Assembly: GCF_963675165.1 (NCBI RefSeq)
Contig: NC_087377.1
Span: 14,938,198-15,002,197, forward strand
Source: Halichondria panicea
Taxonomy: Eukaryota > Porifera > Demospongiae > Suberitida > Halichondriidae
Reading direction: 5' to 3'
DNA: 64,000 bases
The position numbers and the translations under genes are program-made. Position 1 is the first letter of the stretch. Every line of letters begins with the position of its first letter. The notes beneath the pieces were generated by a model. That model was not told the origin of the DNA, ran no database searches, and worked only from the letters and a program-made list of their open reading frames with translations. Below, piece by piece: positions 947-64,000 of the stretch.

Positions 947-977
<31 letters not shown>

Positions 978-2148
978 AGCTATAGTGAGATCTCTCAATG
1001 TCAGATCCCACTGGCCAGCAACAAACGTGTTATGAATAGCCTCCTAGACTTCTGCCTGGAGGGTCCCTCTCTGAATGTAATCACTAAACTGCTCATAGCC
1101 AACTGTCTCTTTCGACTATCGCACAACATTAACACGCACAAGTACTTGCTAGAAGCTGACATACTGAGGAAAGTGCTGCTGTTCTTCTCAAAATTTAAGG
1201 ACAATTTGACGTACAGAACAAGTATGGTTGTTTGGTAAGTATAGATTGCATTTCGAATGTTTTGCGAGCTTAAACTTTTGCGGGTGTGTATGCACTTATC
1301 AAAAATCTCTGCCGGTATTTTTTTTATGACATCACAATTTTTGCTAGTATATTTCGGCTCATTTGCGCACTCACAAAACATTCTAAGGAATACGTACATA
1401 ATTATATAAAGCTGCCTGTATACGTTGTACAGATCTATGACATTATTAATTGACCATTGTACACAGTTGTCTCAAGATCATAATTATTATGCCCCAGTGT
1501 ACTGTGCTTATAAGTATCTATAATTATACACCAAATACAACAGTGTGAGTGCATGGTTTCTATTCTTGTATGATACTTTGTAATTATCATTGCTCTTCCC
1601 ATGCACTGTGCAGCTACGCTCTGGCGGTGACATTGTCTCGTCTGCTCTCATTTTCACCCTCTCAAGTCCCCCATCACTTAATGGTCGAGTCTCTTTCCTC
1701 ACTTAAATTATTCCTCGCTTCCGTAAAAAGAGAAAATATGACGCCAGCTTTGGAAGAATACCAGTGCAATTGGATCACTGTTGCTCCATTTGTGGACGTC
1801 TTTTTTTCGCCAATTCATAATCGTACTAACGAACAGGAGTCTACCCCTTCCCAAGAAGTTGATCTACGTGCACTGTGTATGCAGACTAGCTTGATGGCAC
1901 TGAGTGTGGAGATGAATCGACCTTGCCACAGGAGACTGGCTCTAAACCAAGGCCTACTAGATACTCTGATTTGCTTATCATGGGCGGTGGAAGTCAAGTG
2001 GCGTCATCAAGTGTGTGCGATTGTTGAACTATTTAGAAAGGACAATGAATCACTTCATCTACCTGTGCCAAAGTTGCATACACTAGCTGCAGTTTGTCTG
2101 GCTAGAGATAATTTGTTTTCAATCAGAGACACTTTCAACTTTTCATAA
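1..2148 (+). CDS. ARM/HEAT-like alpha-solenoid protein, C-terminal part (5' end off window)
   Basis: Three exons join in phase: 1-592, 980-1234 and 1614-2148. They give 459 residues ending at a TAA. The first exon is open to the left edge in the frame whose first full codon is at position 3, so the start is missing. The donors read GTAAGG and GTAAGT, and the first acceptor follows a long CT tract. The protein is leucine-rich and helical with no membrane segment. Stretches such as GLLWNFAETRQSRLHVVKRG and LLIANCLFRLSHNINTHKYL look like ARM/HEAT helical pairs. I do not recognise the family with confidence. The C-terminus of a centriolar ARM protein such as rotatin is one weak possibility. The gene ends 237 bp from the stop of the convergent giant minus-strand gene, so the two are tail to tail. 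Confidence 0.7.
794..832 (+). repeat. Relic of a pogo-type MITE end
   Basis: The stretch from CCATAATCCGAATAGAGCAG to about 832 nearly matches the subterminal sequence of the intact element at 11925-12305 (AATCCGAATAGAGTGGGACC). No second end is seen here, so it is a fragment inside the first intron of the ARM-like gene. Confidence 0.6.
953..977. repeat. (CT)n tract at an intron acceptor
   Basis: A CT dinucleotide run sits directly before the AG acceptor at 978-979 and serves as an extended polypyrimidine tract for the second exon of the ARM-like gene. Confidence 0.8.
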
Positions 2149-2385
2149 GGCTATAAATAAGCTCATGCAACACAGTTGCACAAATCATTAATAATTATTA
2201 TTGTTTCTGTAACTATAAGTTAATATGTACATTGATGAATTTATAAAGTGACCAGGTTGTTATTAGAGTCCTTAAATTTTGTCTGAATATTAATATTGTA
2301 ATCTAGCTTCAGGTTATCAATCTGCATGGAAATACTGACTAATTAATTGGTATTGCATTAATTATTATAGATAAATTTGAAAGTA

Positions 2386-4105
2386 CTAAACCTCCAGCCA
2401 ATTTGAGTTGGGTACCACCACTCTCGTCACAGTCCCATCACTGGACGACACTCTCCTGTGATCAGTGGCAACTCTTTCACTGACTTCCTGAAGTGGAACA
2501 TGCGTGTGCGTGTGGTATGACGTATATTTATTAGTGAAGTGCATAATTATATGCAGCTTATTATTGTGGTATTTTTATATGGACCATTATCAGTCGCTCA
2601 TCTACATGCACAGTTCTCTAAAATCACAGTCTATAGGCTTGGCAGATTATGCTTAGGTTCTCCCGAACATTGAGAATAATGCTGGGAAAAATAGGAGGGA
2701 AAAACTGTCAGCAATTTGTTTTCTTAACTGCATGTTTTCATATTCTACATGTAGAAGACTACCTACTTTATAATACGACATTGATGATGTATTAATACGT
2801 CCAACTATTATGTATATAGCTATTGGGTTGATACTGCCACTCACCTCTTTAGTCTTTTGTGACGGCACTTCCAAATCGACCAATTCCCTGACTGTCCGCT
2901 CACGGTCCTCCCAAGAAGTAGCTCGCCCCACTATTGTCTCCAGACTCCTCCTTTCTCCTCCCACTATGGGTTGGGTCGCTCGAGATAAAAACAGCTCCTG
3001 GCAAATTGTTTGAATGGCCTGTACAATACACGTGTGTATACCATTATAATGATATGCTGAGAGTTAATACAACGATATAATTATATAAAAACACTGTTAC
3101 AGGAATCATAAATTATAATTATTATGCACATGCATACTATTATACATGCATGCAGGTAAGAGGTACGGGTACGTATGATTAGCTATAGAAATAACTCACA
3201 GAGTAAAACTCCCTGAGAAAGAGAGGATTGTTGTCATCAGTGATGTCTCTACACTTGAGATGGGCCAGGCAGTGAAGCATAACTAAAACAAACTCTCCAA
3301 TACTTTCCAGACGCTGCTTTCTAATATAAAGAATCATAGTCGAGTGTTCGTAGTAGAAAGATTTTCGGAAACAGTTTCGAGCGTAGTTATTGGGTGGTAG
3401 ATTGCTTGCAATGAGAATTGTGACTTCTGGCAGATGATTTTGAATGTGAAGGAGCTTGGAACAAAATAATCCAAATCGATACACCACAAAATCGACCGGT
3501 TCCAGTGACTGTACTTCAGTAGGTACTAGTTCTCCATTGCATTCCCACTGTGCATCACGTACATCAATGTAGGGGGTGGAGTTATCGGCCGGAGGGGGAT
3601 TACCAATCGAGAACATTTGCGTTTGAAGGAGCTTCTCTATCTCTGTGAGCTGATTGAAGAGAGGTGTGGCCATGATCAACTTCGTGATTTCAGACTCTTC
3701 ACTGAGCACATTCTGAGGCACTGCGAGCACATTTTGAGGTACTGCTAACGTACTAACTTGATTGACAATATTCTCAGGTATAGATTCCATCCTAGTTGGA
3801 GCGGCCAGATTCTTGGTCGGTAGAGTCACTACCATTGGGGTACTGGGTCGTCTAGTTTGAGCCAGTTTAACTTGCAGCTGTTTCGCCTCTTCTGTATTGA
3901 CCTCGTCCACTCTCTGTTGCTCTTCCTCGTCATCGGCGTGCACTGCTATGGCCTCTTCTACCTCTAACTGCTCGCGTCGCCGCTGTTCCTTTCTCTCCCG
4001 TCGGCGCTTTATCTCCCCCTCTAGACGGTCGACTTGTCTCCTCTTCTCTTTTTCCATGCCCTCAAGCATCTTTCTCATTGTCTCCTTGTGCTCAGCTATT
4101 AGTTT
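2386..4105 (-). other. Exons 36-38: end of coiled coil and compact C-terminal domain
   Basis: Exons are 3200-4105, 2845-3018 and 2386-2487, all joined in phase 0, ending at TAG. The start of exon 36 continues the coiled coil of exon 35 (KLIAEHKETMRKMLEGMEKE) across an 8.9-kb intron. A non-coiled domain follows, with FVVYRFGLFCSKLLHIQ, VTILIASNLPPNNYARN, LYIRKQRLESIGEFVL and LHCLAHLKCRDITDDNNP. The even hydrophobic pattern and complex composition suggest a real folded domain of about 170-200 residues. The HCLAH motif is not a metalloprotease HExxH. I do not know the family. Confidence 0.75.
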
Positions 4106-7100
4106 CTGTGTGTAAATTAGTACACTTGTTACTATTGGTCAACAGGTGTAGGATACATATATAGATAATATACAGCCCCAAGACATGCACGTGAAATGCA
4201 AGCTTTTTCATTGGTTCAAGAAAGCACGAAAGAATACCACAAATGTGTGAGTATAAATTATAGTTGTAATTGTATAAAGATCAAAGAAACCACTGTGCAA
4301 ATAATTATATGGTATATTGCACAGTGATGGTACATCAAAGCTATAGTTACCAAGTCCACAGTGCAATTAGCCTCCTTCACCGGCCTTCATAGAAAAGAAG
4401 GCCTGCTATCGACTGCTTGCGCATGCGCTAAATTATTGGATATTTTTTCCCGTAAAATTGCCTATAATACAGAATTCATCAGAGAAAATATCCTAAAAGT
4501 CATACACAGAGCTATATAGCTAGCTAGCTAGAGACAGAGCTGTGTAGGTTTGTTGTACAGCTATTTTCTTCTGATAGAATCAGTAGCAGTAGTATAGTAG
4601 ACTTTCACCAAAGTTAATGTTAAATGGGCGTGGCCTGTCCATATAGGCTCTTGTCAGCTTTCACTCCATTCAAACGATTGTCATCCACGCTGTTGCAGGC
4701 TGTGAGTCTTTTGTTAACATAGCAGGCTAAGGGTAGCTATCAGAGAATGCTATCGGATGGGCTAGAAACCTTCAATCGAACTTTCTATTCTACTTCCTTC
4801 AATCCACTTCCGTTTGTTGTGATGTCATAGTTTTACTGAGCATATACGATGTTATCCAAAGCCCCCAGATACCGGGGGGATATTAGCGTATGCACAAGCA
4901 GTCGATACCAGGCCCACTTCCCTAAGTGAAGTGGGGCGGCTACAGTGCAATATGCTATATTTTTGCATTCCTTATATTTTGCATTCCTTATATCAAAATA
5001 AGGAATGCAGAATGTATGAATCTCATTATAACTATGCCGCTTCTCCCACGCAACAAATCAGTTATTGCATAATCACTCGTGCAATATGCCTGATATTGGC
5101 TCAGTAGCATGGTTGAGGGCTGTATGCACTCGTGCTCATGCAATAACTATAATACATATCTTATGATTGGAACATTTCTGCTGATACCGTACCAATGTCA
5201 ATGTGTAGGTGAATGAACAAGCTACAACATATATCCAAAAATGTTTCCATAAGGTGGTGGGTTCGTGGTGATTAATAAACAATTGTTATAGTGGGTAAAT
5301 CGGTTAGGGAGAGAAAAGACCAACGGTTTCCGGCTAAGATTTGGCTTTGTCACAACATCTACAGGGTCGTAGACAGCGGGGGGGGTAGGGGGGAAGTTGC
5401 CCCCCCTGACATTCTAGATCTGCCAAAATTACTGATCATGCCCAATGCTTTCATCGATTAGAATGATGTAATGAAATTGAGATATGGGCAGGGCTATCTG
5501 ATGCGCATGGCTGACTGTTGAGAACGAGTGATGACCTTTTTTTAGGTAAAATTCTGAGCTCCACTGCGCCTCTGGAAGCAGGAGTACCTTTCTAGCTCAA
5601 GTTTAGTTGGTCTAAGTTGTGCCACAGCAAGTTGGAAGTTGCCATACTCAGAGGATATGAAATAAAACAGTTGACCTTTTTTTAGGAAAAATTTTCAGCT
5701 GTTATTTTGCCACCCCTGCAAACCTAAGCTATCTACGGCCCTGATCTATATAGATTTAGTTTGGTTATCTTATGAAAGGACCATGCATGCAACTTGGAAG
5801 TGGGAGGGTCAGGATAAAGATTATAATATTCATTGACCTATAACAGTCACACAACACAACCTCTAACAAAATTCATAAGATGCGTCTCTATGCCAATAGA
5901 ATCACCCTCTAACAAAATTCATAAGATGCGTCTCTATGCCAATAGAATCACCCCATGCATGCACATGCACAGCAGTACATTTAAATTCTATCTTGTAACA
6001 GTAAACAGTATAGTTATAGTACACTGCCTAAAACTAAGCTTTTGGCCTGTAATCTCACAGAAAAGTACATTAATGATGGCTACTGGCGGAGTTGGAATAT
6101 CAGACACTTATAGACAAAGTGGAAATCCAAAACACAAAGCCCTCAAGAAGTCACATATCATTCTTGTGAGTTGTATAAAACAATCGCCACAAACTATTGT
6201 TGGGAGACTGATTCAACTCGATGTACTCTCGAGAGATAATAGAACCGAACTTACAGATATGAACGACAGAACCGCTAAAGCCACAAAGATTGTGGACATT
6301 ATAACAGACAGAGTAGAACAAGAGCCTTCTTTCTTTAATACATTTATCAGTGAGGTAATGGAGAAGGAACCATGGATGGAACGGTGCTTAGAAAAAGTGA
6401 ATAAAAACTTTGAATATGCCCGAGCAAAAAGCAGTCACAACTCCAACGATAACTCTGATATAGAATCTGAAAGCTCAAGTTATGTCTCTGCTGTTTCAAC
6501 ACAACCTGTTGGCCTGTACAAACACTTAAATGAAGCAGAATCTGATCAAACAGTTATTATTACGAAATTTAGTGAGGTCCACTTGGAAAACATGACTATT
6601 GATATACAGCGAAAGTTTGTTTCTCTGGAAACGCGCGTAGCTGATGCCTTGGAAAAGAATGGGGTCACCTCTCGTAGCCTCATATTCTATTTGAAAGGTT
6701 TAGAGGCTGTTAAGTCTGATAAAATTAAAGTGAAAAGAGCATGCCTATATTTTGATGAAAACTTTATCAGAAACGTAAAAAGAAAATGTTTAGATGTGTA
6801 TGATGTTTTCGAAATGATCAGAGATTATTATTCTTGGGTTAATTATGGACTTCTTGAAGATATTATAGATACTTTCTTGTGTGAGAATGATGCGATACAG
6901 AAAAAACTACGAAAATATGAAGATCAATACAAGAAATATTGCGAAAATAGAGTTTGTGATATCCCAAGAAATGGATTCATGCGACTTAGTAAACGACGTA
7001 AAGGTATTGAAAAAGTTTTCAAGATAGACTACAAGTGGGATGAAATAAGAATGGATAGGATAGAAACAATCCGAGACAGAATCAACACAGTTTTAAATTT

Positions 7101-10100
7101 TAATTCTCATACACTCGGTCTCAAAGTGTTACGAAATGGATGTGTAGAAGTCACGTTTGAAATCCCCGAGCATGTTGCAGATGCGGTGTTTCCATTGACA
7201 GAAGACCAGGTCCAAATACTCAAGCAACATTCTATTAAATTCCTTGGTGAGTTAATGTATATTAAGTTGTGACTAAAACAGTTGTTGCTTTTGACCTCTG
7301 AGATCAAAGGAATAGCAGTGCCAATATAACTAGAGCACTAAAGTGCAAACCCTCAGCTGGTGACATGATTACAAAGAAACCAGAAGAACTAGGTACCAGA
7401 AGAACTAGGTAGTGACTGAGCTGTCTAGCACAGCAACTCAGAACTAAACCAGACTACAGCAGAGAGAGAGACATGCTGAAACATTAGGCTGATTAGAGAA
7501 CAGAGTTTTAGTGGTACATATATGAACTGTGGACTAGGATCAAAGAAGCCTGGAGTCTCAGAGAAGTATAATAGTATGGCTCCTGGAGTAGGATCCCAGA
7601 GTCAGCTATCAAGAGAGGAGACAACATCCAGTTACAATTCTAGCTTTCTATTGTAGTGACCCTTTTCCATTGTGCCTGGTACAGGATCACTTCATCTGTA
7701 AGTAATAAAGGCCACAGCAGAGGAGCAGAGGAGATTGGTCACGATTGTTAATTAATCTTCTAATTTTCTTTGTAACCTCCAATTCCGTGGAAACTTGAGA
7801 GAAAGTAGCTATACTATATACTAGCTAAGCCAAAAGGCTGAAACGATCATAGCCTTTTATACTAGATCTAGTAGGAAATGATGCTAACAATACTCAGTGA
7901 TACTAGAAAGTGAGTAGCATAGTCATACTCGAAGTAATAAGCCAGAAACTAAGATTAGTCACAAAGTTCCAGTTGTTGCTGCACTTTCCTTATTTCTTTG
8001 ACTCCTGTCTTAATATAGCAGGTGTAGCAACGATAGTTTTAAACTACTACGACTCCTAGACTAACAGGAGACGTAATACAAGACAGATAAACGCTCAAGA
8101 ATGCCAAAATAAGATAAAAGTGCTAACTCAGCGGGTTGGGGTTCTTTCAATGGCTTCTGTGCATTACTGTAGGAATTGGAGGTTACAAAAAAATTAAAAG
8201 ATTAATTAGCAATCGTGACCAACCTCCTCTGAGGCCACAGTGTAGCTTAGACTCGCAAGCCACTCCCTTTTCTCTGATTGGATGGGGGCGGGAGAAAAGG
8301 GACTGGTGACTCTGGGCTACAGCTTGTGTAAATCAGGAATGCTATTAAATATCAGGCCACTCCAAATGAGACTGTAGTTTTCCGTCAGAGACTCCAGTAA
8401 ATTATAAGCGGATGTGAGCAGTATTATCATTATTCATTGCTATGAATATCATTATAAATTGATACGTCATTAATTAATTAGCCACAATAATTCAGCCAAC
8501 CATGCGCTTAGAGGCCAACAAAGAACAAGAAAAATTTTATTTCAATATTTCATTGGATAATTAGAGAAATACTGGCAATGACTATTATGAGGTAGCTAAA
8601 GCAGGAAGTGCGAGTTGGACGGGAAACTACAGTCTCATTTGTAGTGGCACGTGCAAATTATCCAATGTGTCAAAGCAGAGTCAAAGCTAAAGACAAGTAC
8701 ATGTACACAGATCTATCTAGCCAGCCTTTTGATATTAGGCCACTGTTAGTTGCATACTTGTATCAGATCAACCTCCCTCCCCGTTTTGCTCACCTCCTCA
8801 ATTAAGTCATTATTGCTGATGTCAGCCATTATTTGAGGTCAAAGTTCTTTTTTTGGCTGACATTGCATTATTTTACCATGTACCATGTGCAAGTTGCATT
8901 CTTCCTGCACATGCATGCATGCAGCAAAATTAAAAATGTTCATCATGATATAATGTGTGTATAAGCTATATGTAACTTTGGCACCTCCACCGAGGCATCA
9001 GCACCAGCGGTGCTTTCATTCGCTGCATATGTACAGAGCCACTTAGCACATTACAAACGAGGAAATGCGGTTAAGACAATAGTGAATCCGCAATACTATG
9101 CATAGTAAGACACATACTCCTGCCAATACAATAGAGCTCCGCTCCGTATTATAGCTGGTAAATTTGATAACAAATAATTAATTTTAGTGATTCGAATCAA
9201 GGTAAGGGTTGCCAAAATCAATATTTTAGCTTGCAGTATGTGACATGCAACATGATTGTATACTAGTCTTGATCAGAGGCCGTGGCTACTATTATGTTTC
9301 ATTTTGCTGGCAGACGAGGCTACTATTCGAGAGAGGCCATTGTTCGAGAACCCACCACAAAAGACAATATAAGTACCTTTAATTATATGGAGATATTTGG
9401 TCAAACCACTTAGACAACAGCTCTAGCTTGTACACAGTTATAGATGCCTGCTCTTTTGCTCAATTAAGTCCTTATGTGCTCCTGCCGGGCCATTATAGTT
9501 ATTGAAGATTTGAGGATTCATGTATAACAATTATGTGTCCTTACAGAAACCAGGCCTGGATACAAAACAAGCACTAATTTGACTCCTATAAATCAAGATT
9601 ATAAGCATGAAGCTGTAACAAATTGGCTTGCACAATATTTTCAAAGAATGGGAATCAACGACGTTGAGGATGACTCAGATTCCATCTCTGAGATGAAAAC
9701 GGTTATTGAATTCAAAGCCCCTAAGCGTCAATCAGACCACAAACAGCCTGATACACTAAACTGGAAAATAGTAGCATTTGGTCAACAAAACGCAAATAAA
9801 TCTAGTATCATAAATGGGATACTTGGTCAAAAACTAATCAGCTATCCAGCTGCTCAAGATTATTTTAAGAAAGAAATTAACGGAGTTAAAGTTGAAGTTT
9901 GGGATATCGATAGTTCTATCAGTATCAAGCACTATGAAACGGTACGCAATGCAGACACCATAATCTGTTTTCTGTCCATGGTAACTACAATGGAAGACCA
10001 TACGCAAACAATAAAAACTCTATCAAGGCAATTTGGTCAGAGCTTTTGGGAGAGGTGCGTTATTGTATTGTACGATTCATATATACTTCAGGAACAAAAA

Positions 10101-13100
10101 TCCACCCAAAAAAATAATTCAGAAGCTTTTGAAAAAGAAATGATGAAGTACAGTTTGTGCATTAGGAAAGCCCTTCTTAGCTTCAACATCACAATGGAAG
10201 TGACCGAGAGAATTCAAATAGTCCCGAGTGGCAAACTTGGCTGTCGGGACTGGTTTTCTAACATATGCTGGCAAGTACTAAGAGTTAGCTCATCACAAAA
10301 GCAAATCGCTGAAATTTTTAAGCCAAGGATAAAGATGAAGACACTTGGAAAGTCTGATAAATGTGCAGGTGAGCTGTACTCCCAATCCATTTATATATCC
10401 ATTGCAAAACTAAAAACATACAATCAAGGTCTGAGAAAGCACAGTAGCGATTTCAGTGTGTATCTTGCGGTGATAACAGCTTTAATTTTTACTATTTGTG
10501 GTTTTGCTGCTGCCGTATTTGGTCGTATTCCAGTTCTTGATGTAGCTGTGATCATTGCTTCTGGATTTATGATATTATTTGTATATATGTTTATAATACC
10601 GAGTTCCATGAGGAGAGAGACACTGGAGATGTATGATGTATGATGATCGTGTTGAGCTACATGGGGTTATACCTTGCAAAACGAATACCAAGAAAACATT
10701 TTTGGGCCAAATTTAGTATTTTGTTTATTATGGTTCATGTTCTTATTGGCATTGTCCGACTCCTTGCTGTTCATCTTGTTTTTAACGGTGTTTTACTTAT
10801 AAATTATACTGTTGTTCTTGTTTGTGATGTTGCGGTTCTTGCTGTTTTTGTTTTCGCTGTTGTTATAATAATTGTTTCGACTAGATTTTTCAAAGTATTG
10901 TTTTCGACATGATGATAAATTTTTACGCTCATACTTTTCTAATCATCTCTTATAAAAGTGTTTTTTTTCTACTTTTTCTCCTACTACCGCTGTGTTTTTT
11001 CAGTCCTTGTGTGGATTTTAATGTTGTTGTTTTGATTTTTTGGATGCTGTGCTCGATCCTGTTGATGCTATTTTTTTGCTGTAAAATTATTGTTTTTGCT
11101 GTAATTGATTTACTGTCGAAGACTGTTGTACAGGACATAACGAGTGTTGCAAGCGTGCGCTTGCTAATGCCTCTCGCCATGTTATGCTTTCGCTCTAGTG
11201 TTATAGTAGTTTCTATAATGAAGTTAGCTTATCTATATAAAGTCACTGAGAAGAAAATGCTTATTTACATGCATCTAATATGGCTTACCAGAAAGGATCT
11301 GTAGTTCAGTGTATATGATATCTAAGAAGAAAAGACTTGTGTACATGCATAATAATTATTGTAATATCTAATTATGGTAGTGTTTTGTGGCTTACCAGGC
11401 CCTCAGTCAAGAAAAATATGATTCTGCCAGGTGGATCTGGATCTGGATCTTGGATATTATTTTCTCACACATGAGGAATGAGCGCGCATGCGCACTACAT
11501 CCACAGGAATAATTAATGGGTGTGTCCAAAGAGATCAATTTCACAAATGGCCGGCTACTGCTAGCTAGCTGTTTTAACAGATATTTTCTGAGTCTTGTAG
11601 CTAACAAAAAGCTAGCGCTTTAGTGCAAGGCTAACTCATTATGTTGAATAGAAAGTTTGTGCGAACAGATGATACTATGAAAAATTCTGAAGAGACTGCA
11701 ACAGCGTTCAATGTGAGTCAAACTAGCCATAACTCAAGAAAGAAGCTTTAGTTTGCTAATCCACGAATCAAAATCCAAGAGAACGTGGCTAGAAGCCTAT
11801 AGAAGCTGTTAGCTTTCGTCGCATTGCAACCGTTGAGCAATTACAACTGGAACAGACACACACAGTCTGCTTTACCGTATCCCTCGTGCGGCTACGCCTC
11901 GAGGCATAATTATAGTTCTCAATACAGTAGAACCTCGCTAATCCGAATAGAGTGGGACCAGACCCCATCCGAATACATGAAATTTCCGGATTAACAGATG
12001 TCATTAATTGATTATGAATATCGATCATTAACGAATACACTTTTGTACATGTATTATAATATTACTGTGGCCAGAAGGGAAGCTGCTAGTGAGTCTTGGA
12101 GCTCTCTCTTTGTTTTCTTTGCAGTGGCCATTGTCTTAATTGAGCAGTTTATCAATAAAATTATTGCTGATTTAGCTAAGCAATTTACATTGCGCATGCG
12201 CAGTACTCTATTCTACTGACAGCCCCTCCTCTTTTTCAGTTTGCCATTTTGTCCGGATTTGCGAGGTTTCGGATTAAAGGGGTCTGGATTAGCGAGGTTC
12301 TACTGTAACAACTTAATTTTACATCAGTACCTAATTCTATACATTGTTTTTTGTAGTTGTAACTATAATTATAGACAATTGAAAAGACACGTACAGTTAT
12401 TACATGCACCTTTATACATAATTATACTATGAATACAATTTCTTCACCTATAGATATGTACATGCTGCTAGTATACACATGGTACGGATACAGCAAGAGC
12501 AATTAAAACAATTATTGCTCCAAACACCATGCAAATTAACTAGGACTCGATTGTAAACCTCACACTATAGCTTTAGGATATACTTGAGCCTATATACTTG
12601 TCTCTAAACAATAATTATTATGACTGTACAAATACGTATAATACGAAGATCTTACCATTGTATGAAGCTATAATTATACATGTCTACGAAGCTATGTTCG
12701 TTGTCTAACTGATTACCCTACAGTGCTAGAGAAATATATTATGGGAGCATAAAGCTATGCATTTTGAAAAGTTTTAAGGATCCAATTTTACATCATTATG
12801 CAATTAACTTATTTCCTCAACTAAACACCGCGATTTTTTAATTAATTGTACACACAAATTATGCAAATGATAGCCGTTCGCATATAAATAGCATTAGTTT
12901 TACCATGCACACATTATTTTATAGTGCTATAAACGGCAAAATGTAATCAGATGTATGTATTAGTTCTCACCTGTCTCTCTTGCTCTGAAATCCCTGCGTT
13001 CCCATCCAGGGCCCTCTTATGTATGGCCTCTTGCTGAGCAATCCTCTGCTCCTGCATCACCTGATACCGCTCCGACAGCTGCTCCTGTCTCTGCACGTCT

Positions 13101-31100: not shown

Positions 31101-34100
31101 TTATAGGTACCTGGAGGGCACGGGGCTGGATCAAATGAACCTTCTTCGCAGTAGTGACCTATCAAACAGAGAGTGACATTTGTACTGCCATGATCGGGAC
31201 AGTAGTGTCCAGGGGTGCAAGGGTAACATTCACCAGCTGCAGTACGAGGCATCCACGTTCCTACATCACAGGGTATAGGTGCTGCAGATCCCACGGGGGT
31301 GTAGTGACCAGCCATTGTGACAGTATCGTTAGGAGTTTTAGCGCCCCCAGGGCAATAGTAGCCGGCATTACATGGGCCAGTAGGTTCAGGAGTGCGAGCA
31401 TTCGAGCAGTAGAAACCGGGTGTACATTCGGTACAGTCGAAGGTATTCGTCGATCCAGACGTGTTACTAAAGGTGCCTGGTGGACATGGCAAGCTGACGC
31501 TTGAGCCTAAAGGACAGTAGCCTCCAGCAGGGCAAATTTCTCCAGAACTTCCATCGGTGGGTGTCGAAGTATTTGCTCCAAGATAACAGACAAAGCCGGG
31601 ATCGCAGGGAGCTCTTGGACTAGTTAAACCTGGTGAATCGCAATACTGGCCAGTAGGACATGGTACACATTGTAGTACATCAACAAGACCAGTATCAATA
31701 CCAATAGTTCCTACAGGGCATGGAATAGGAGCTTTAAGCCCAGCTACGCAATAAAATCCCATTGGACATACGGCTGGATTCGCCGACCCTTCGACGCAGA
31801 AACTTCCCTCAGGACATTCAACACAATCACTTAACTCGGCACTTGTGAAATTGTCTTGATAGGTTCCCCCAGGGCATGGTATTTGGGTTGGCCCGTACGA
31901 GCCAATATTCCTGGATAGTTGACCGTTGCTGATATTAGTGGGACAGTAAAAACCCGGCTGGCACGGCCCTGTGGGAAGAGTGGCGTTCTCGAGGCAGTAA
32001 TAGCCAGCTGTACACGAGAGACAGTCGGAGAGAGAGGATTGACCTTCGAGGGGATTGTACGTACCGGGAGTACAGGAAAATTCCCGGGGGGTGCCTATGA
32101 GGGGCGGGACAGAAGCAATGATTTCAAGAAAACATACAGAGTACAATGTTTCACTCACTTTATGCATATCAAATTATAAGGAGACATGGTATAAACTTTA
32201 CAAAACATAAGACAATGGGATGTATTATCCTGAAACTGTGTACAGAAACAATCATGCTTCCATGCAAACATTCAGTCATCAACATAGTTGTAATTGACAA
32301 TGAAGTAGTCAAAACAATTATTAGGCCCTCTATATAGCTAGCTCTGAATAATGAACGCTGTATAATTATACTTGTAAACGATTATAATTATTTCTGTCCT
32401 CAACTTTACTTTTCTACACAAAACATAATATAGACTAATTATTATGTCATTATGATAACATAACGTATATAGACTAATTATTATGTCATTATGATAACAT
32501 AACGTACGTATATACATGCAGTAACATTAATTTTAACCATTGCGATTGTGATCCATCAGCTCACCTTGTGGGCAGTAGAATCCAGTAGCACACAGTACAC
32601 TCTCTGCAACGTCACTCAGACCGGCAACGCAATAGTTTCCAGGTGGACACTGTTTATTCACTCTCATATTTTCTTCAGACGTTGTATTCTCATCGCAATA
32701 ATGGCCCACCAAACAATCGAAACAAAATACCGATCTTGGTGGTGAAAACAAACCAAGACCGCAATCAACTGGAAAAATACTACCCTCCACACAAAATTGA
32801 CCTCCTGGGCACACCAAACAGTCACTCTTGTTTCCGATAGGATCGCCAATGGTTGAGTCTGACACGGCGTCATAGCCATGGGGATTATATGTGCCAGCAG
32901 GGCAGGCCTCAGGGGTTGCAAATCCACGTTCGCAGAAATGTCCTATAGTACAGTTTAGGCAACTAGACGTCGAGTTTTGACCAAATAGGGGGTTATAAGT
33001 TGTTTTCGAACATGGGAATTGGTGCGGTAGTGAAGTATCCTCCGGGCAATAGTGACCCCTTGGACATACGTCCGTGGGGCCACCTCCTCCCCCTATACAA
33101 TAGTGACCAGCTGGACAAATCGAGCACTCGATTGCTGAAGTGAGATCGGAAGATTCTGTGAAAGTTCCTGAGGGACAAGGGTACTTGTTAGGGGCGGGCG
33201 TGCCCATAGGACAATAATGGCCCGGTGCACATGGTAAAGGCTCGGAGAAGTTGAATCCAGTCGCAAAACCACAAGCCTGGCCTGCCGGGCAAATATCACA
33301 TTGTTCAGGACTTTGCAGGTCAATTCTGAAAGTGACAGTTCCTGGAGGACATGGGTACTGATTCGGATAAATAGTTCCATTTGGACAATAGTGACCCTCA
33401 TTACAAGTGTGTGAAGGTTCTGTGAGAGCGATGGTTGGACACGACATTCCAGCAGTGCATAAAATACAGTTAAATTCGTGGCCAGTTCCGTTCAGAGGAT
33501 TGTACGTACCTGGTCGGCATGGCAATGGAGACACAGTCGAATGAGAGCTATTTCCCGATGGACAATAATGGCCGACAGGGCATTCTATACACTGGCTGGC
33601 TTCGTGGAAACTTGACCCTGGTCCATAAGTGCCGAGGGGACAGGGAGTGTGATAAGGGGTGGGTGTGCCTTCAGCGCAGTAGAATCCTGCCGGACATTCA
33701 AGACCTCTGCTACTACCCTGAGGACAGTACATGCTGGCCGGGCATATTGCAGTGCATCCAGTCTCTACGCTTGTCTGCATCGTCCGATTGTTGAAGGTGC
33801 CCGCGGGGCATGGGAATTCTTGTGCAAATGTCGTACCAGCAGGGCAATAATAGCCCTCGGGGCATGTATTGGAATCGAACGAAATGGAACCCGGATTCGG
33901 ACAGTAATATCCCGGAGGACATAGTGTACAACCTTCTTCTTGGCTTCCGGCTCCGGTAACATTACCATAGAAACCGACGGGACAGAGGAATAAGTCTTGA
34001 CCGTCACACCACGCACCGATTGGACAAATTTGATCAAGTGGAGTGGGGGTAGTTGATGTTTCGAGGCATTGGTAACCATGGTTGCAGGGCAAACAGATAA

Positions 34101-37100
34101 GGCTGGCAGGTTGACTCCAGGTACCCAGAGAACAAGCCAGCGGTAAAACTGGAGAGGGGTGAATTAGTGATTAAAATACGCATGTGTACAGTAATGCTAT
34201 AAATATGCATACCACATTGAGCATAAATTATAGGTTTTACGTTGATTCTATATTTATATGACATCTTGAGCCTTCCCTTATCATCACAATTATCATTGTC
34301 AATTTGTCTGCTAACTTGTCACATCGGCACATTTGCAATGGTTTTTCACTTGCTAAACGCTTCAGTACAATATAATTTTACTCCACATTCATGCAAAACG
34401 CGATCATGCATACACTCACTGGTAGGATCCTGACACGTGTATCCAGCATCACAGAGCGTGCAGTTAATAGACCCGTCTAAACTGTACGTCCCTGGAGAGC
34501 ATGGAGTGGGTGTGGCTTCAGGAACGGGGCAAGCAAAGCCTCGGGAACACATGAAACAAGAGGCAGAACTACCAGGAGAGTAGTAGCCAGTAGGACATTG
34601 GGTTCTGGGGAATGAGGAGTACTTTGAATGAACTGTGAATGAAGCATAATTTATAGAGCACAAAACCACTATAATTATGCTCTGTAAATGGTACTACAAA
34701 GCTATATTGGAGTAAAACAGGGTGCATGTATATATATATATGGTGACATTTCACAGTACACAATGAGCTTATAGTGTGCATGCATTACATGCACACACAG
34801 CGCTCAACCACTCACTACCATGAAGCTAATCAGAAAGCTTCACACTAATAGTAGTGTATATAGCGCTCACCTGGTATCCATAGTGGTGGATGGGCACTCA
34901 TAGCCGGGAGGACACTGTGTGCAGGAGCTCTGATTGCCAAGAGAGTATGTGCCTGGGGAACAGTCTATCATTGTGGCTCGATCAACAAAAGGACACTCCC
35001 TGGGAAAAATATTGTTGCTGCATAATTTTTAACTTACTTTTTTTGATACATAATAATTTATTACAAAATGCAGCAATATACACACTATAGTATTACATTT
35101 GAACATTCACATGCTCAGTGATATACTTACATTCCAGCCGGACACATTGTACACTCAGTCTGCACCCCAGTAGAGAATGATCCAGGCACACATGGCAATT
35201 CCAAAGCCTGATCAGAGAGAGGACAAGCAAAGCCAGGGGGACAAGACACGCAGATTTCACTCCTAACCCTACTGTAGGTGCCTGACGAACAGACGAGGTT
35301 TGAGGAACCATCGCTAGCTGAGCAGGCCATTCCAGGTGGGCAGGGCGTGCAAGACGTCTGGTTACCGAGGGAGAAGCTGCCAGGCTCGCAAGGAAACTCA
35401 ATGGCTGAGCTATAATGAAAAGCAGAGTTTGAAAGATACTATAAACACAACTCAATAATTAAAGTCATAATTATAGAAATCGACTTTCAACAGATAATCA
35501 CACTCCTTTTCCAAAGTGTAGCGTTCACCCCTGACGAAAAGTCAGGCACCCATGTCCCAAATAATAACAGTTCACAAGGTAACCTCTGTAGAATGGCCAA
35601 CATTTATTTTCCAAAAGTTTATAAAGAGGCAACTAGACACGTACTATTTTGATTTAGTTTATAGTCTTGGTTGCTACCAATAGCTTAAGTTTCGATGTTT
35701 AGAAATTGTTCGGCGAACGTAGCTAACGTGCATTGACATAATTATCTTAAACGGGCAATTTATTCAGTTTTAGAGGCAATTCCACAAAAGTTAAATGCCT
35801 CAAAAATGTCGCGTATACTACATACTCACCATGCATCAGGACAGTACATTCCAGGAGGACAGCTAGTGCAGGTCACCTGACCTCCAGGGGAGTAGGTGCC
35901 GGGAGTACAAGGGGTCATAGTGACAGAGGTAGTGGTGTCTGGACAGGAGTGACCCGAGGGACAAACAGTACAGTTTGTAGACCCTCCATCACTTACATAG
36001 CCTGAATGGAATGAATTATACAAAAAGTTTCATCTGTTACTGTTTGTAACAAAGTAATACACATGCAAAATGAACCTATTTGGCTTGCACACTTAGTCTA
36101 GTAGAACGTCAAGCAATATTCTTACAAAACGTTCACCCCACATAATCAGCTCACCAGGTGGACAAGGGCTGGGAAACCGACTCGTGAGCGGACATTCAAA
36201 TCCAGCAGGACATAATGTACACACCTCGTCACCAGCAGCACTGTAGTAGCCATGGTCACAGGGTAGAGGCTCCAGGGCAGGACCAAGGCAGGAAAAACCA
36301 GCCTCACACAGAGAACAAAAAGTGGCATTCTCAACAGAATAGGTACCTGGAGGTAAGTTTTTGCTAGCTATACATAATGAACCTTTGAGTGGATATAAAA
36401 TCCATGTACTGCCAATTTTGCTAACCAACTTTGAGGGCCATATAAAAACTTCACCTGCTGGACAGGAGAGTGGGGGGTTGGTGGTGGTGGGGCAATGATT
36501 TCCAGGCGGGCAAAGAATACACGTAATGCTAGACTCATTGGAGTAGGTGCCACTAGGACAGGGAGAGGGCAGATCGTAGGTCGTCAGACAATAGGATCCG
36601 GAAGGACAAGTAGTGCAAAGTGGATCTAGAGGGTATAATATGATTGTGATTTTGTGCATTCGAGGGGACTATTATACCTCAAGCAAATAAAATGTAGCAA
36701 AAGAAAGCAAATCGTATAATACATGGTTCATTAGCCTGATAATTAACAAAGCATTTCTAGGATTTTGCTGACGAAATTATCTTACTCAATTTTTCCTTTT
36801 CAAATTTCAAATTTCAGGAGTATTATACCCTCAACAGGACACGTCGTGTATATATATATGTATATAACTATACCTCCTTGCAAGCTGTACTCTCCGGACA
36901 CACAGGGCATTGGAAGACTTCCATTGGAACATGCAGCACCAGCTGGGCAGAGCAGACACTCTACACTCCCTAACGGTGAGTAACTCCCAACAGAGCACAA
37001 TAGTGGCAGAGCATCTTGAACGTGGCACGCATAGCCCTGAGGGCAAACGATACATTGTGTATTTTGGCCTGGTAGGGTGTAGGTGCCGTTGGAGCAGGGT

Positions 37101-39222
37101 AGTGGTGGTTGTCGGGGGTCAGGACAATAGTGACCCGCTGGACAGGCAGTACAGATGCTGTGAGTGGAGTCAGGAATTGTTCCTGTATGGAGAATTAGCA
37201 ATATAATTATACTTCACACAATTATACAACGTATGTGTCAGTGTCTCCTTAACAATATTATATGTGTGAGCTTATTAATTATGTGTATATCATTTAAAGT
37301 AGGTCATTCAATGTAGCTATACATTGACCTAATATTTAAGCGAGAACATGCATACATGCAGGTACAACAACTATAATTGTATATAGACACTCATGATAAT
37401 TGGCAATAATTGCATGCACTCACCACTATCACACAGTGTGCAATTGTCCTGTCCTCCCACTGCAATGTATCCAGCTTGACAAGGCAGTGGTACAGATGCA
37501 GGACTGCTGCAGTAATGACCCGGTGGACACACGATACACTCACCAGCACCCTCAGTACTATAAGTCCCAGTATTACAAGGAGTGCAGTCTACTTGTAGCT
37601 CCAGGCTGAATGTACCAACCGGACAAGGTAACGATTGTATTCCATTCAAGCACTGGCGTCCTATTTCACACAATGTGCAATTCAATTGTCCAGTCACATT
37701 GTTGTAAGTACCAGAAGGGCAAAGTGTAGGTACGAGAGAAGGATCAGTGCAGAAATGGCCAACTGGGCACAGAGAGCAATTACAAGATCCGTTGATGGCG
37801 TACTGACCCTCTGAGCAGTCTTGAGGGATAGTAGTGGCTGCCTGAGGGCAAGAGGTACCCACAGGACATTGAGTACAACTTACAGAGCCAGCTGCAGCGA
37901 AAGAGCCGGGGTTACAGGGGTCAGGAGAAAAGGATGGATCAGGACATCTGTGACCACCAGGACATTCTGTACAATTTGTTGATTCAGTTTCATTCGAATA
38001 GAATCCCGACGGACAAGGTATTGGAACAGAGAATGAAAAAGGACATTTAGCTCCAACCGGACATTCCATACAGTTTATTGCCCCTGTGTCTCCACTGACG
38101 ACAGCGTACAACCCACTGATGCAGGGTGTGGGTGCGGAGGTACTGATGTTGGGGCAAGCTGTCCCACTCGGACAAGAGAGACAACTAATTGAACCTGTTT
38201 GTCTAGCATATGTGCCAGGCTGGCATGGCTGCAATAGAGAGCATTTCTTAACAGTATAATGCAAAATGTTTACCACAAAACCACAGTCATGCAATGATAA
38301 ACATCAATATAATTATATATACTGTTCTTTGGACGCAAGCAAGTAAAACTCCCCTCTATATATGCAGGGGCGGATACAGGAATATTGGAAGGGGGGGCTA
38401 ATCACCAGAACATTTTCCTAAAAGAAAGAGGTCAATCGTTTTTCCAGTATAGCAATTTTGAACCGTTTTTTGGTATCGTATATATGCCCTTTGGAAGAGT
38501 ATAGACTATATAGCTAGCAGTGTTGTTGCATGCACAATAGGACGTGCACTGATACATGCAGACTTGCATGCAGCCAGCTTGCTCCACCTGGGACAACTGC
38601 CCTGCATTCAATGGCTAGCTATTAATTAACCTTGTTTTTGCAGCATAGCAAGCACATTCTCTTCCTGCACCTCCATGAGTTTATAATTATAGTGTACTCC
38701 CATTGTATTATAACTCTTTGCTATTGGATCAGCACAATATTAAAAGCTGCATGCATGGAGTTAGGGCTGAAAATCAGCACTCACTTGACAAGCGGAGCTG
38801 TTGATCTGTCCTGTGATTTTATTGGCTGTTCCAGGGAGGCAGGATTGAGGTGCTGATTGGGAGCCTTCACAGCTAGAAAGGAACCAAGTTGATATTAAGG
38901 TGATAACCAACTAATACAAAGATTGCACAAAGCTGTCAAAACACAAAAAGTACACATTACTCAGCACGCAATCGATTTTAAAATTCCTTGCATTGTGCAA
39001 GCAAGCGCAAGCGCTGTGTGCAGTGATTGCTAACTTAACTTACTAGAATCCGGATGGGCATTCTACACATTGTCCAGTACCATTCCCATTCACCAGTACC
39101 AGATACTCTCCGGGATTGCAAGTATTACTGCATACAGTGGAGCTACTACAACCCACATACAACACAAGCATCAGCAGAAGTGACAATGGCAGTACTACCT
39201 CGTTAGAGGAGAGTAATGCCAT
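2386..39222 (-). CDS. Giant single-pass membrane protein: GCC2/GCC3 cysteine-repeat ectodomain, TM helix, PIGG-repeat and coiled-coil cytoplasmic tail
   Basis: I assembled 38 exons by hand. Every junction keeps phase and the coding sum is 17,376 nt, about 5,791 residues. The start is the ATG at 39222-39220, which opens a clear signal peptide (LPLSLLLMLVLYVGC core). The stop is TAG at 2388-2386. In order the protein has a signal peptide (about 1-29), dozens of Ephrin_rec_like/GCC2-GCC3 repeats (about 31-3240), a membrane-proximal region with an RRRR site, one TM helix (about 3562-3587), a short basic tail, a P-[IV]-x-G repeat region (about 3807-4296), long charged coiled coils (about 4297-5480) and a C-terminal domain (about 5550-5760). 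Exons are listed in the sub-entries; exons 18-20 are 21635-21789, 21343-21480 and 20577-20788. Three plus-strand loci lie in its introns. The ectodomain suggests a surface receptor or adhesion molecule and the tail a long scaffold; both roles are inferred. A split into two genes is possible but disfavoured, because phase is kept across the TM and both giant introns. Confidence 0.8.
4368..4942. mobile_element. Mutator-like MITE with 9-bp target-site duplication
   Basis: The 575-bp element starts TAGCCTCCTTCACCGGCC and ends with its inverted partner GGGGCGGCTA. Subterminal arms pair over about 70 bp (GCTATCGACTGCTTGCGCAT against the reverse of the segment near 4890). It is flanked on both sides by CAGTGCAAT (4359-4367 and 4943-4951), a perfect 9-bp duplication. 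No transposase frame is inside. The TAGCC ends match the elements at 54371 and 59039, so these form one family. Confidence 0.8.
5362..5743. mobile_element. Short DNA element with CAGGG termini
   Basis: The left end CAGGGTCGTAGACAGC is the imperfect inverse of the right end CTATCTACGGCCCTG. ATCTA occurs immediately outside both ends, a possible 5-bp target duplication. The body contains two near-identical segments around GACCTTTTTTTAGG at about 5535 and 5673. The CAGGG ends recall hAT elements, but the 5-bp flank does not fit the usual 8 bp, so the class is open. Confidence 0.55.
5861..5952. repeat. 46-bp tandem duplication
   Basis: A 46-bp unit beginning CTCTAACAAAATTCATAAGA occurs twice in a row (5861 and 5907) with no visible difference over most of its length. 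It lies upstream of the CARD-like gene and outside its likely coding start. Confidence 0.85.
6073..7272 (+). CDS. CARD/death-fold domain protein, intronless coding region, nested in an intron
   Basis: The likely product is 399 residues from the ATG pair at 6073. The frame stays open upstream to 5833, but that part is low-complexity and includes the 46-bp duplication. A good acceptor (CTGTAATCTCACAG, ending at 6060) suggests a 5' UTR exon further up. Residues about 22-110 look like a six-helix CARD: helices around SHIILVSCIKQSPQTIVGRL, DVLSRDNRTELTDM and FFNTFISEVMEKEPWMERC. A Ser-rich linker (SSHNSNDNSDIESESSSY) follows. The C-terminal half contains IQRKFVSLETRVADALEKNG and DYYSWVNYGLLEDIIDTFL, patterns I associate with sponge and cnidarian death-domain proteins (from memory). 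A role in death-fold or innate signalling is inferred. It lies in intron 35 of the giant gene, on the opposite strand. Confidence 0.7.
   Translation: MMATGGVGISDTYRQSGNPKHKALKKSHIILVSCIKQSPQTIVGRLIQLDVLSRDNRTELTDMNDRTAKATKIVDIITDRVEQEPSFFNTFISEVMEKEPWMERCLEKVNKNFEYARAKSSHNSNDNSDIESESSSYVSAVSTQPVGLYKHLNEAESDQTVIITKFSEVHLENMTIDIQRKFVSLETRVADALEKNGVTSRSLIFYLKGLEAVKSDKIKVKRACLYFDENFIRNVKRKCLDVYDVFEMIRDYYSWVNYGLLEDIIDTFLCENDAIQKKLRKYEDQYKKYCENRVCDIPRNGFMRLSKRRKGIEKVFKIDYKWDEIRMDRIETIRDRINTVLNFNSHTLGLKVLRNGCVEVTFEIPEHVADAVFPLTEDQVQILKQHSIKFLGELMYIKL
7273..7717. other. Non-coding stretch downstream of the CARD-like gene
   Basis: No gene is supported. It contains a short direct repeat of ACCAGAAGAACTAGGTA near 7378-7410 and otherwise unremarkable AT-rich sequence. 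Confidence 0.6.
7718..8231. mobile_element. Foldback element with about 65-bp inverted repeats and 9-bp target-site duplication
   Basis: The left arm (7718-7787, containing GGTCACGATTGTTAATTAAT) and right arm (8168-8231) are inverted copies ending in the same TGTAACCTCCAATTCC inner sequence. The termini are CAGAGGAG and CTCCTCTG. The 9-mer AGGCCACAG flanks both ends (7709-7717 and 8232-8240), a perfect target duplication. The 514-bp body has no transposase. A 9-bp duplication fits Mutator-like elements, but the ends differ from the TAGCC family, so this is a second family. Confidence 0.78.
8242..8320. repeat. Imperfect hairpin related to the 50610 palindrome
   Basis: An arm beginning GTAGCTTAGACTCGCAAGCC (8242) pairs with an inverted arm ending at 8320 (GACTCTGGGCTAC). 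The motif CTTAGACTCGCAAGCC is shared with the perfect palindrome at 50610-50670, so both may be ends or solo copies of one repeat family. Confidence 0.6.
8321..9546. other. Intergenic AT-rich stretch before the GTPase gene
   Basis: I see no supportable gene. If the GTPase exon at 9547 begins at a splice acceptor, its first exon should lie here, but I could not identify it. Confidence 0.5.
9547..10643 (+). CDS. Degenerate GIMAP/AIG1-like GTPase with two C-terminal membrane helices
   Basis: The frame is open from an acceptor-like TTACAG ending at 9546 to TGA at 10643, about 365 residues. No ATG occurs in frame before 9648, so either an upstream exon supplies the start or translation begins at RMGIND. 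The P-loop reads GQQNANKSSIING, so the usual Gly before Lys-Ser is Asn. The switch region reads VEVWDIDSS, lacking the DxxG glycine. FWERCVIVLYDSY lies where AIG1/Toc34-type proteins carry their beta-strand and guanine motif, and DWFSNICWQVL is another family-like patch. Two helices close the frame (YLAVITALIFTICGFAAAVF and DVAVIIASGFMILFVYMFII). GTP binding is doubtful given the altered motifs. It is nested in intron 35 of the giant gene, opposite strand. Confidence 0.6.
10640..10912 (+). CDS. Small hydrophobic ORF overlapping the GTPase stop by ATGA
   Basis: The 90-residue frame starts at the ATG inside the motif ATGATGAT that also holds the stop of the GTPase frame (ATGA overlap, -1 frame). 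It is mostly membrane-like (KFSILFIMVHVLIGIVRLLA, VLVCDVAVLAVFVFAVVIII). It may be a continuation of the GTPase membrane domain lost through a frameshift, or a separately translated ORF. No family is recognised. Confidence 0.35.
   Translation: MMIVLSYMGLYLAKRIPRKHFWAKFSILFIMVHVLIGIVRLLAVHLVFNGVLLINYTVVLVCDVAVLAVFVFAVVIIIVSTRFFKVLFST
10909..11304 (+). CDS. Second hydrophobic ORF, again coupled by ATGA
   Basis: The 131-residue frame starts in another ATGATGAT motif overlapping the stop of the previous ORF by four bases, again moving to the -1 frame. It has several membrane-like segments (VFFLLFLLLPLCFF, VVVLIFWMLCSILLMLFFCC, FAVIDLL). With the preceding ORF it makes a run of about six or seven hydrophobic segments after the GTPase. 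Function is unknown. Confidence 0.35.
   Translation: MMINFYAHTFLIISYKSVFFLLFLLLPLCFFSPCVDFNVVVLIFWMLCSILLMLFFCCKIIVFAVIDLLSKTVVQDITSVASVRLLMPLAMLCFRSSVIVVSIMKLAYLYKVTEKKMLIYMHLIWLTRKDL
11305..11924. other. Non-coding stretch after the GTPase cluster
   Basis: AT-rich with a short GGATCT repeat near 11432-11452. A short open frame from 11641 ends at a GTGAGT and could be mistaken for an exon, but nothing supports it. Confidence 0.55.
11925..12305. mobile_element. pogo/Tigger-type MITE with TA target duplication
   Basis: The element starts CAGTAGAACCTCGCTAATCC and ends with the inverse GGATTAGCGAGGTTCTACTG. TA flanks both ends (11923-11924 and 12306-12307). At 381 bp it holds no transposase. 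CAGTA termini with TA duplications are typical of pogo/Tigger-like Tc1-mariner elements. A relic lies at 794-832. Confidence 0.85.
12971..18511 (-). other. Exons 23-35: long cytoplasmic coiled-coil region
   Basis: Exons are 18320-18511, 17897-18121, 17490-17666, 17132-17300, 16700-17022, 16424-16623, 16061-16198, 15680-15827, 15087-15500, 14748-14861, 14232-14498, 13972-14100 and 12971-13780. Most junctions are phase 0. The product is rich in Glu, Lys, Gln and Leu with heptad patterns over hundreds of residues (KLEEKQKLEMDKLLLDQ, KKQHKKQLTEFDKATQ, REAKLRELEAEIEHEKTRD). One less helical patch (KKIFGRDALISIGG) lies in exon 31. The intron after exon 32 appears to use a GC donor. The region probably dimerises or spans distance to the cytoskeleton, a role inferred from composition only. 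Confidence 0.78.
18760..20359 (-). other. Exons 21-22: P-[IV]-x-G repeat region in the cytoplasmic tail
   Basis: Exon 21 (19107-20359) and exon 22 (18760-18974) encode about 490 residues. Short units of roughly 18-20 residues recur with the form D-P-x-T-G-x-x-x-P-[IV]-x-[IV]-G, for example DPVTGLLVPIQIG, HPQTGKIVPIGG and HPHTKSLLPIGG. A second block in exon 22 repeats the idea (GGRIPITVG, GGLVPVVG, NGVVVPVPQ). The spacing suggests a beta-strand repeat, perhaps a solenoid or beta-propeller-like fold. I cannot name the family. It lies between a short helical segment and the coiled coils, so it may be a docking platform; that is inference. Confidence 0.75.
22124..23089 (+). CDS. Rhodopsin-like seven-transmembrane receptor, intronless, nested in an intron
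   Basis: The frame encodes 321 residues with seven hydrophobic helices at about 20-44, 52-75, 95-118, 133-155, 179-205, 218-243 and 256-281. N-glycosylation sequons lie at the N-terminus (NST, NYS). Cysteines in the first (GSCQNYS) and second (GSLCLHP) extracellular loops could form the usual disulfide. The DRY position after helix 3 reads SIVHY, and the NPxxY position in helix 7 reads SYPSYL, so both activation motifs diverge. A basic C-terminal tail (KCKKIRDKMCRRKQPK) follows. An AATAAA at 23241-23246 is a likely poly(A) signal. The gene lies within intron 17 of the giant gene (21790-23775) on the opposite strand. The ligand is unknown. Confidence 0.75.
   Translation: MKVMNSTNYSIVEPGTVYIASGVAHILLVIIPTIILGSIVLAIFISNKKLRDPVSVVFIFSSAWSIAGPLSYGLLMDVSLITDREVIGSCQNYSSRIFWIAFATFQAGLLVINAYMSIVHYLTIRWGINKVSLRVTAAVLFISLTVTLLICMVNFVGLSSPLKVRGSLCLHPSSFTDTMVIGGSALIFLSLPICIVVGVFFSLTIRYVKKNTIANTNLVKSVTKIIVSWTIFVIASQSVPVTAFLIRTHSKGSIVVYNVAWFFIYSVEISYPSYLLLVLFLHKTVRETFIGKCKKIRDKMCRRKQPKTIEVKQQVFDINII
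23247..23775. other. Intronic stretch between the 7TM gene and exon 17
   Basis: AT-rich sequence with no gene or repeat I can support. Confidence 0.6.
23776..26138 (-). other. Exons 13-17: membrane-proximal region, RRRR site, transmembrane helix and juxtamembrane tail
   Basis: Exons are 25908-26138, 25333-25449, 24967-25066, 24179-24756 and 23776-23929. Exons 13-15 encode a region with several cysteines that lacks the GCC pattern (CRAGFTQYEG, VCNANCQQRN). Exon 16 has the dibasic run TTRRRRQA near residue 3426, a candidate furin-type site. A beta-rich segment follows (FAFRFTQSGVFSFYLSD), then a glycine/valine-rich TM helix (ALIGGLLGGGVAVMVGIVIA). Exon 17 continues straight into LLFRRYGWSKPV, a basic stop-transfer tail with many Ser/Lys residues. 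The charge pattern places the N-terminus outside and the long tail in the cytosol. Confidence 0.8.
26453..38872 (-). other. Exons 2-12: extracellular GCC2/GCC3 (Ephrin_rec_like) repeat array
   Basis: Exons are 38785-38872, 37424-38228, 36874-37182, 36455-36625, 36155-36346, 35830-36001, 35131-35409, 34871-34999, 34420-34604, 32565-34148 and 26453-32094. The repeat is about 40-60 residues with the pattern C-P-x-G-x-Y/F...C...C-P-x-G-x-Y/F-C, for example CPAGYYCNSDALTTPSGPC and CPPGTYSPSMFNIEEGNC. Several dozen copies run without another domain type, with many N-x-S/T sequons. Exons 2-11 are mostly 90-800 bp, but exon 12 is 5,642 bp and codes about 1,880 residues without an intron. The family is known as GCC2/GCC3 or Ephrin_rec_like cysteine repeats. 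Such arrays are stiff disulfide-rich stalks, and any ligand is unknown. Confidence 0.85.
32429..32506. repeat. 39-bp tandem duplication in an intron
   Basis: The unit around TAGACTAATTATTATGTCAT occurs at 32431 and again at 32470, in the intron between exons 11 and 12 of the giant gene. Confidence 0.8.
39044..39222 (-). other. Exon 1 of the giant gene: signal peptide and first cysteine module
   Basis: The exon runs from the ATG at 39222 to a GTAAGT donor at 39043-39038. It encodes a hydrophobic leader (LPLSLLLMLVLYVGCSSS) and then the start of a cysteine module (TVCSNTCNPGEYLV, CVECPSGF). It ends in phase 2, and the next exon (38785-38872) completes the Tyr codon of the repeat signature GFYCEG. 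No other upstream ATG in this frame is needed, so I take this as the true N-terminus. Confidence 0.82.
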
Positions 39223-63938: not shown

Positions 63939-64000
63939 GTAAGTTGAGTGTTTCTATAGTAATAGAAGAGGTCATGTCACTGTTTCTTTCTTTTCATTGC

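Follow-up and report, generated by a model that had tools for sequence, protein, structure and literature searches.

The window, that is, the whole stretch of 64,000 nucleotides analysed here from the sponge Halichondria panicea (NCBI RefSeq assembly GCF_963675165.1, contig NC_087377.1, positions 14,938,198 to 15,002,197 of the forward strand), carries on its minus strand a giant gene for a predicted membrane protein with an ectodomain of GCC2/GCC3 repeats and a long coiled-coil tail (Table 1). An independent exon-chain search followed by hand correction gave a chain of 38 exons from an ATG at 39222 to a stop ending at 2386, with a single open frame of 5,791 aa and one terminal stop. The initial annotation, in which 38 exons had been read in phase from signal peptide to stop and a protein of about 5,800 residues proposed, is reproduced in both exon count and length. 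Phases are compatible at every exon junction. The introns are all GT-AG, the sole exception being the GC-AG intron after exon 32. Two introns are long, intron 17 with 2.0 kb and intron 35 with 8.9 kb; the remaining ones measure 76-556 nt.

Table 1. Parts of the giant GCC2/GCC3 gene, in window positions (aa, residues of the predicted protein)
Feature	Position	Strand	Basis
Entire coding region, 38 exons, 5,791 aa	2386..39222	-	continuous frame, GT-AG introns, one GC-AG
Signal peptide, about aa 1-28 (MALLSSNEVVLPLSLLLMLVLYVGCSSS)	39139..39222	-	hydropathy peak aa 1-19; direct reading
Exons 1-12, GCC2/GCC3 (Ephrin_rec_like) array	26453..39138	-	Pfam PF07699, motif count
Exon 12, 5,642 nt, GCC array	26453..32094	-	Pfam PF07699
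Exons 13-16 (5' part), membrane-proximal Cys-poor region	24608..26138	-	partly alignable with C9 paralogue
RRRR tetrabasic motif, possible furin-type site	24653..24664	-	aligned to paralogue RRRRR
Juxtamembrane extracellular domain, ~110 aa	24275..24607	-	29% identity to paralogue
Transmembrane helix WALIGGLLGGGVAVMVGIVIAL, finished by LLFRR of exon 17	24179..24244	-	hydropathy
Exon 17, transmembrane end and basic juxtamembrane cytoplasmic segment	23776..23929	-	hydropathy, exon chain
Exons 18-20, conserved tail start (LEAFSTKQLYSKLADQ etc.)	20577..21789	-	paralogue match E 2.2e-4; spanning match E 2e-17
Exons 21-22, PIGG-type block	18760..20359	-	pattern count; paralogue without it
Exons 23-35, charged coiled-coil scaffold	12971..18511	-	composition; exon 35 alignment to paralogue coil
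Intron 35, 8.9 kb, holding two plus-strand ORFs	4106..12970	-	
Exon 36, coiled-coil end and most of C-terminal domain (from about 3703)	3200..4105	-	36% paralogue identity, 295 aa, E 7.6e-30
Exon 37, last C-terminal-domain helix (AIQTICQELFLSR) and linker	2845..3018	-	aligned with paralogue FRALSLICNDLFLSK
Exon 38 and stop codon	2386..2487	-	exon chain

Other open frames occur on both strands of the window. A 321-aa ORF nested in intron 17 (22124-23089, plus strand) has several hydrophobic stretches and is 7TM-like by eye, with no Pfam match. Of the two plus-strand ORFs of intron 35, one encodes 371 aa (9528-10643), has hydrophobic segments towards its C-terminus and weakly matches AIG1/GTPase (E 7e-4); the other encodes 481 aa (5827-7272) and weakly matches CARD (E 0.0023). 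Both scores fall below the cut-off. Two IgGFc-binding domain genes (PF17517, E 6e-52 and 1e-53) are found on the plus strand at 42863-46842 and 62576-64000. Sushi repeats follow the first of these. One sushi unit of 251 bp recurs 2.9 times at 94% identity, which points to exon duplication in the recent past. A LINE-type reverse transcriptase ORF (RVT_1, E 6.5e-43) occupies 51375-53249 on the minus strand.

A chain for which the GCC ORFs had served as training set collapsed in the tail and was dropped; the tail exons come from a tail-trained chain with hand correction, and the start of exon 37 was set by alignment with a paralogue that lies elsewhere in the genome, on contig C9. Because the chain was built under a phase-consistency rule, agreement of phases is by itself no proof of the gene model. 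Two independent checks back it, the frame preference of a codon model and the joins supported by the paralogue. With training only outside the tail of this gene, the model frame was the top of six in 21 of 21 tail exons. Scores per 100 nt averaged -11.6 in introns versus about -1.5 in exons. The check as a whole gains in part from the fact that the frames chosen contain no stops. At the level of sequence, the giant GCC gene is confirmed as real, with 38 exons in one open frame.

The GCC2/GCC3 array spans aa ~30-3240. A pattern count gave 102 CxxGxxC motifs (about 100 modules), spaced at a median of 32 aa. Several modules exceed the curated cut-off for PF07699 (Ephrin_rec_like), and exon 12 alone matches this family with an E of 4.2e-17 and 62.1 bits against a cut-off of 23.1, over 19 stretches. 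When exon 12 was compared with PDB sequences (phmmer), no cysteine-rich chain was returned. The same module is also found in Eph receptors, SCUBE and ELAPOR-type proteins, but these have few copies of it and other intracellular parts; no kinase or ephrin-binding match was seen in the exons scanned with Pfam.

Between the array and the membrane lies a different kind of sequence. The conserved tetrabasic site in this region suggests proteolytic processing. The juxtamembrane domain that follows gave no match in a Pfam search; by eye it looks like a degenerate cupredoxin fold, a reading based on GVFSFYLSD...YMYVRV here and GTYVFADS...MTVIMV in the paralogue.

Hydropathy over the full protein shows the signal peptide, one transmembrane helix (aa 3566-3590) and one marginal peak within the GCC array. 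The RR stop-transfer of the helix is encoded by the following exon. The ectodomain contains 371 Cys and 73 N-glycosylation sequons versus only 16 Cys in the tail of roughly 2,200 aa, as expected for an extracellular/cytoplasmic split. Helix and cysteine contrast together bear out the single crossing proposed from first inspection, with about 3,560 residues outside and about 2,200 inside.

In the tail, a conserved starting segment is placed at aa ~3650-3720, and an LYxKLxDQ segment is common to both paralogues. The PIGG block (aa ~3870-4275) is small, with about 7 short DxxTGxxVPIxG units, and the coiled coil (aa ~4300-5500), at more than 1,100 aa, is the main part. The tail had initially been described as long, PIGG-repeated and coiled-coil. 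The coiled coil stands, while the PIGG portion is reduced to its few units and a separate conserved C-terminal domain ends the tail. A pattern count over 3,715-3,724 kb of the paralogue found no PIGG-like motif, so the block is a peculiarity of the window copy and does not define the family. Modelled from single sequences with AlphaFold2, the PIGG exon and the C-terminal domain reached pLDDT 37 and 45, and no fold was assigned.

What such a tail might do can be approached through the domains it has and lacks. By eye the DxxTG units are plakin-repeat-like, and the stalk is large and, with its 73 predicted sequons, glycosylated. These features would suit a non-ciliary protein of the general cortex that attaches cells to each other or to the matrix, with the coil as a plakin- or keratin-linked type of anchor. 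However, exon 21 gave no plectin-repeat match in Pfam, Pfam found no plakin or adhesion domain, and the paralogue does without the PIGG units; a role of this kind seems rather unlikely. A signalling or endocytic receptor, in which the array would bind soluble ligands or particles and the tail would recruit signalling proteins rather than bear load, can be considered on account of the receptor-like topology, the presence of GCC2/GCC3 modules in Eph receptors and the RRRR site, which would permit regulated cleavage. It is judged unlikely: searches of Pfam and NCBIfam brought out neither a kinase, SH3 or death domain nor any other signalling domain in the tail, and a coiled coil longer than 1,100 aa would be unusual for such a receptor.

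The C-terminal domain, about 170 aa within aa ~5540-5730, is separate from the coil. It is the most conserved part of the tail, with 40% identity to the paralogue versus 27% for the ectodomain base, transmembrane helix and tail start, and because of this excess it is probably a functional docking head. Searches of Pfam and NCBIfam gave no match, those of PDB sequences (including a pair profile) nothing significant, and a scan of viral contigs no relative. The domain carries GEFxLVxxHxLAHxK in a helix with HxxxH. By eye this helix is zincin-like but lacks the catalytic Glu, a lead to what is possibly an inactive zincin fold.

Relatives were sought in the whole genome (131 Mb, 39 contigs), whose small size, short introns and about 28 homeobox matches would suit a sponge-like animal. 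The tail start matched C9 at 3,716.6 kb and the C-terminus matched the same contig at 3,722.2-3,723.0 kb (E values in Table 1). In the 36 kb read around these matches, array, transmembrane helix, coil and C-terminal domain follow one another in the same order on one strand within 23 kb (3,700-3,724 kb). The GCC array of the paralogue extends from 3,700.5 to 3,715.1 kb. It is followed by an intronless frame of 551 aa with the Cys-poor base, RRRR, the juxtamembrane domain, the transmembrane helix and the tail start, then by coil exons, and at the end by a 621-aa frame with the C-terminal domain. The two genes have in common the GCC array, RRRR site, juxtamembrane domain, transmembrane helix, LYxKLxDQ segment, coil and C-terminal domain; the paralogue differs in its missing PIGG block, fewer introns around the transmembrane helix and a longer C-terminal extension. 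A third gene with the C-terminal domain was not found in the genome. With array, transmembrane region, coil and C-terminal domain in a common order, the window gene (contig C1) and its C9 paralogue look, from their predicted products, like an uncharacterised animal protein family.

Some other matches turned up elsewhere in the genome. A weak one at C1:3822635 (E 0.55) was taken as chance. Further GCC2/GCC3 exons are clustered on both strands at G000:C3:6679312-6812807, with no match to the tail or transmembrane region of the window gene. A weak match at chance level (L028, G000:C6:2431105-2431413, minus strand) lies inside an intronless open frame of 6,172 aa, a very large single-exon gene.

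The paralogue also bears on whether two or three genes have been read as one: a gene for a surface protein with the GCC array, one for a coiled-coil protein and, past the 8.9-kb gap, one for a protein with the C-terminal domain. Introns 17 and 35 are far longer than the rest and hold plus-strand ORFs, and a 2014 survey suspected gene-model fusions in other animals (PMC4132317). In the paralogue, however, ectodomain base, transmembrane helix and tail start share one open frame, and one tblastn match crosses the helix together with window introns 16 and 17 (E 2e-17). The coil exons of the paralogue keep phase 0, and the gaps up to the C-terminal domain are all shorter than ~700 nt. Homology is collinear on either side of intron 35, with phases that fit throughout: ~230 residues of exon 35 align with the part of the paralogue coil that immediately precedes its C-terminal exon (z 6.8, 0/500 shuffles). 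A short junction test at this intron (90+60 aa) was not significant by itself, so the join at intron 35 is a little less certain than that at the transmembrane helix. Separate genes are very unlikely, and this alternative is, as far as sequence comparison goes, largely excluded. The equal order of parts in the paralogue favours the one-gene, single-pass, receptor-like reading proposed at the outset.

The size of the family matters for another alternative. An immune or allorecognition receptor might be suspected from the huge, repetitive ectodomain and from the IgGFc-binding and sushi genes nearby on the opposite strand. Yet only two genes of the genome have the C-terminal domain and an expanded family with this tail was not seen, which makes such a receptor very unlikely.

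Proteins of a similar general layout have been recorded before. The 2014 survey came across giants resembling synaptonemal coils in a number of phyla (PMC4132317). GCC2_GCC3 repeats occur with a Trichoplein domain in the tunicate Oikopleura (CBY10027.1) and in a hemichordate protein of 3,906 aa, and with a myosin-type domain in molluscs; placozoan proteins of up to 7,710 aa have Trichoplein and myosin domains and were not described with GCC2_GCC3 (PMC4132317). Compared by description, these giants resemble the window protein in their very large size, GCC2_GCC3 repeats and long alpha-helical C-terminal region, and the window protein has the thousands of residues, the GCC array and the charged coil of this layout. 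The Trichoplein/TPH domain is not part of the likeness, as the 1,102 aa of coil searched against Pfam at E<=1 gave no match to it or to any ciliary or cytoskeletal coil family. Transmembrane helices, a C-terminal domain and the unity of the genes were outside the scope of the survey, which asked if such giants are two polypeptides joined through assembly error (PMC4132317). It had been proposed that no named animal protein has this tail. A literature search for a named family with the layout found only these giants, but since the survey had met GCC2_GCC3 with alpha-helical sequence earlier, the general architecture is known, though uncharacterised.

A structural parallel comes from Chlamydomonas. 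The cysteine-rich domain of MST1, about 678 aa, forms a 26 nm rod in the mastigoneme filaments of cilia (PMC11015965). This domain is GCC-like and, likened by description, of the same general module type as the window array. MST1 differs in that it contains Ig-like domains and a poly-hydroxyproline helix and has its own filament, and the paper on it describes no long cytoplasmic coiled coil (PMC11015965).

We consider that this one gene encodes a giant type I membrane protein acting as a mechanical linker, most likely at the cilium or ciliated apical surface, and give this about an even chance of being right. The ectodomain would form a stalk that is stiff, glycosylated and, extrapolated at the MST1 scale of 26 nm per ~678 aa, of the order of 125 nm long (PMC11015965). 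Furin-type proteases may cut the RRRR site, giving a two-chain receptor or shedding. The coiled coil would dimerise, start at the membrane and extend into the cortex or the base of the cilium, where the conserved C-terminal domain may dock it onto a partner, and an extracellular fibre would in this way be tied to an internal scaffold. The predicted anatomy fits the large surface stalk tied to an internal scaffold that was first envisaged; the adhesion or ciliary/cortical role suggested with it is putative. A linker is favoured by the likeness of the array to the GCC-like domains that build mastigoneme filaments. The ciliary site is plausible by analogy; the lack of any Pfam match of the coil to ciliary or cytoskeletal coil families speaks against the linker reading as a whole. 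The putative role of ciliary fibre anchor is attractive because the composition of the flagellar vanes of collar cells has been called mysterious (PMC9671500).

GCC2_GCC3 and coiled-coil giants have earlier been put down to possible annotation errors (PMC4132317). Here two paralogues in one genome conserve the order of parts, which argues that the join of array to coil is real, and such joins can thus be real. The anatomy is now precise, with a tetrabasic site, a juxtamembrane domain, a transmembrane helix, a conserved tail start and a C-terminal domain absent from the domain registers, and a structural class of surface-to-cytoskeleton linkers becomes testable. That the two genes belong to an old animal family of fibre anchors crossing the membrane, with a stalk on the order of 100 nm, a coiled-coil scaffold and a new C-terminal docking domain, is quite unlikely as it stands. 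The window protein is, by its shape, a candidate for the so far missing membrane anchor of collar-cell vanes and ciliary hairs. If the broader reading were true, the family could supply the anchor in the membrane that the flagellar vane or the ciliary glycocalyx would need in a sponge-like animal.
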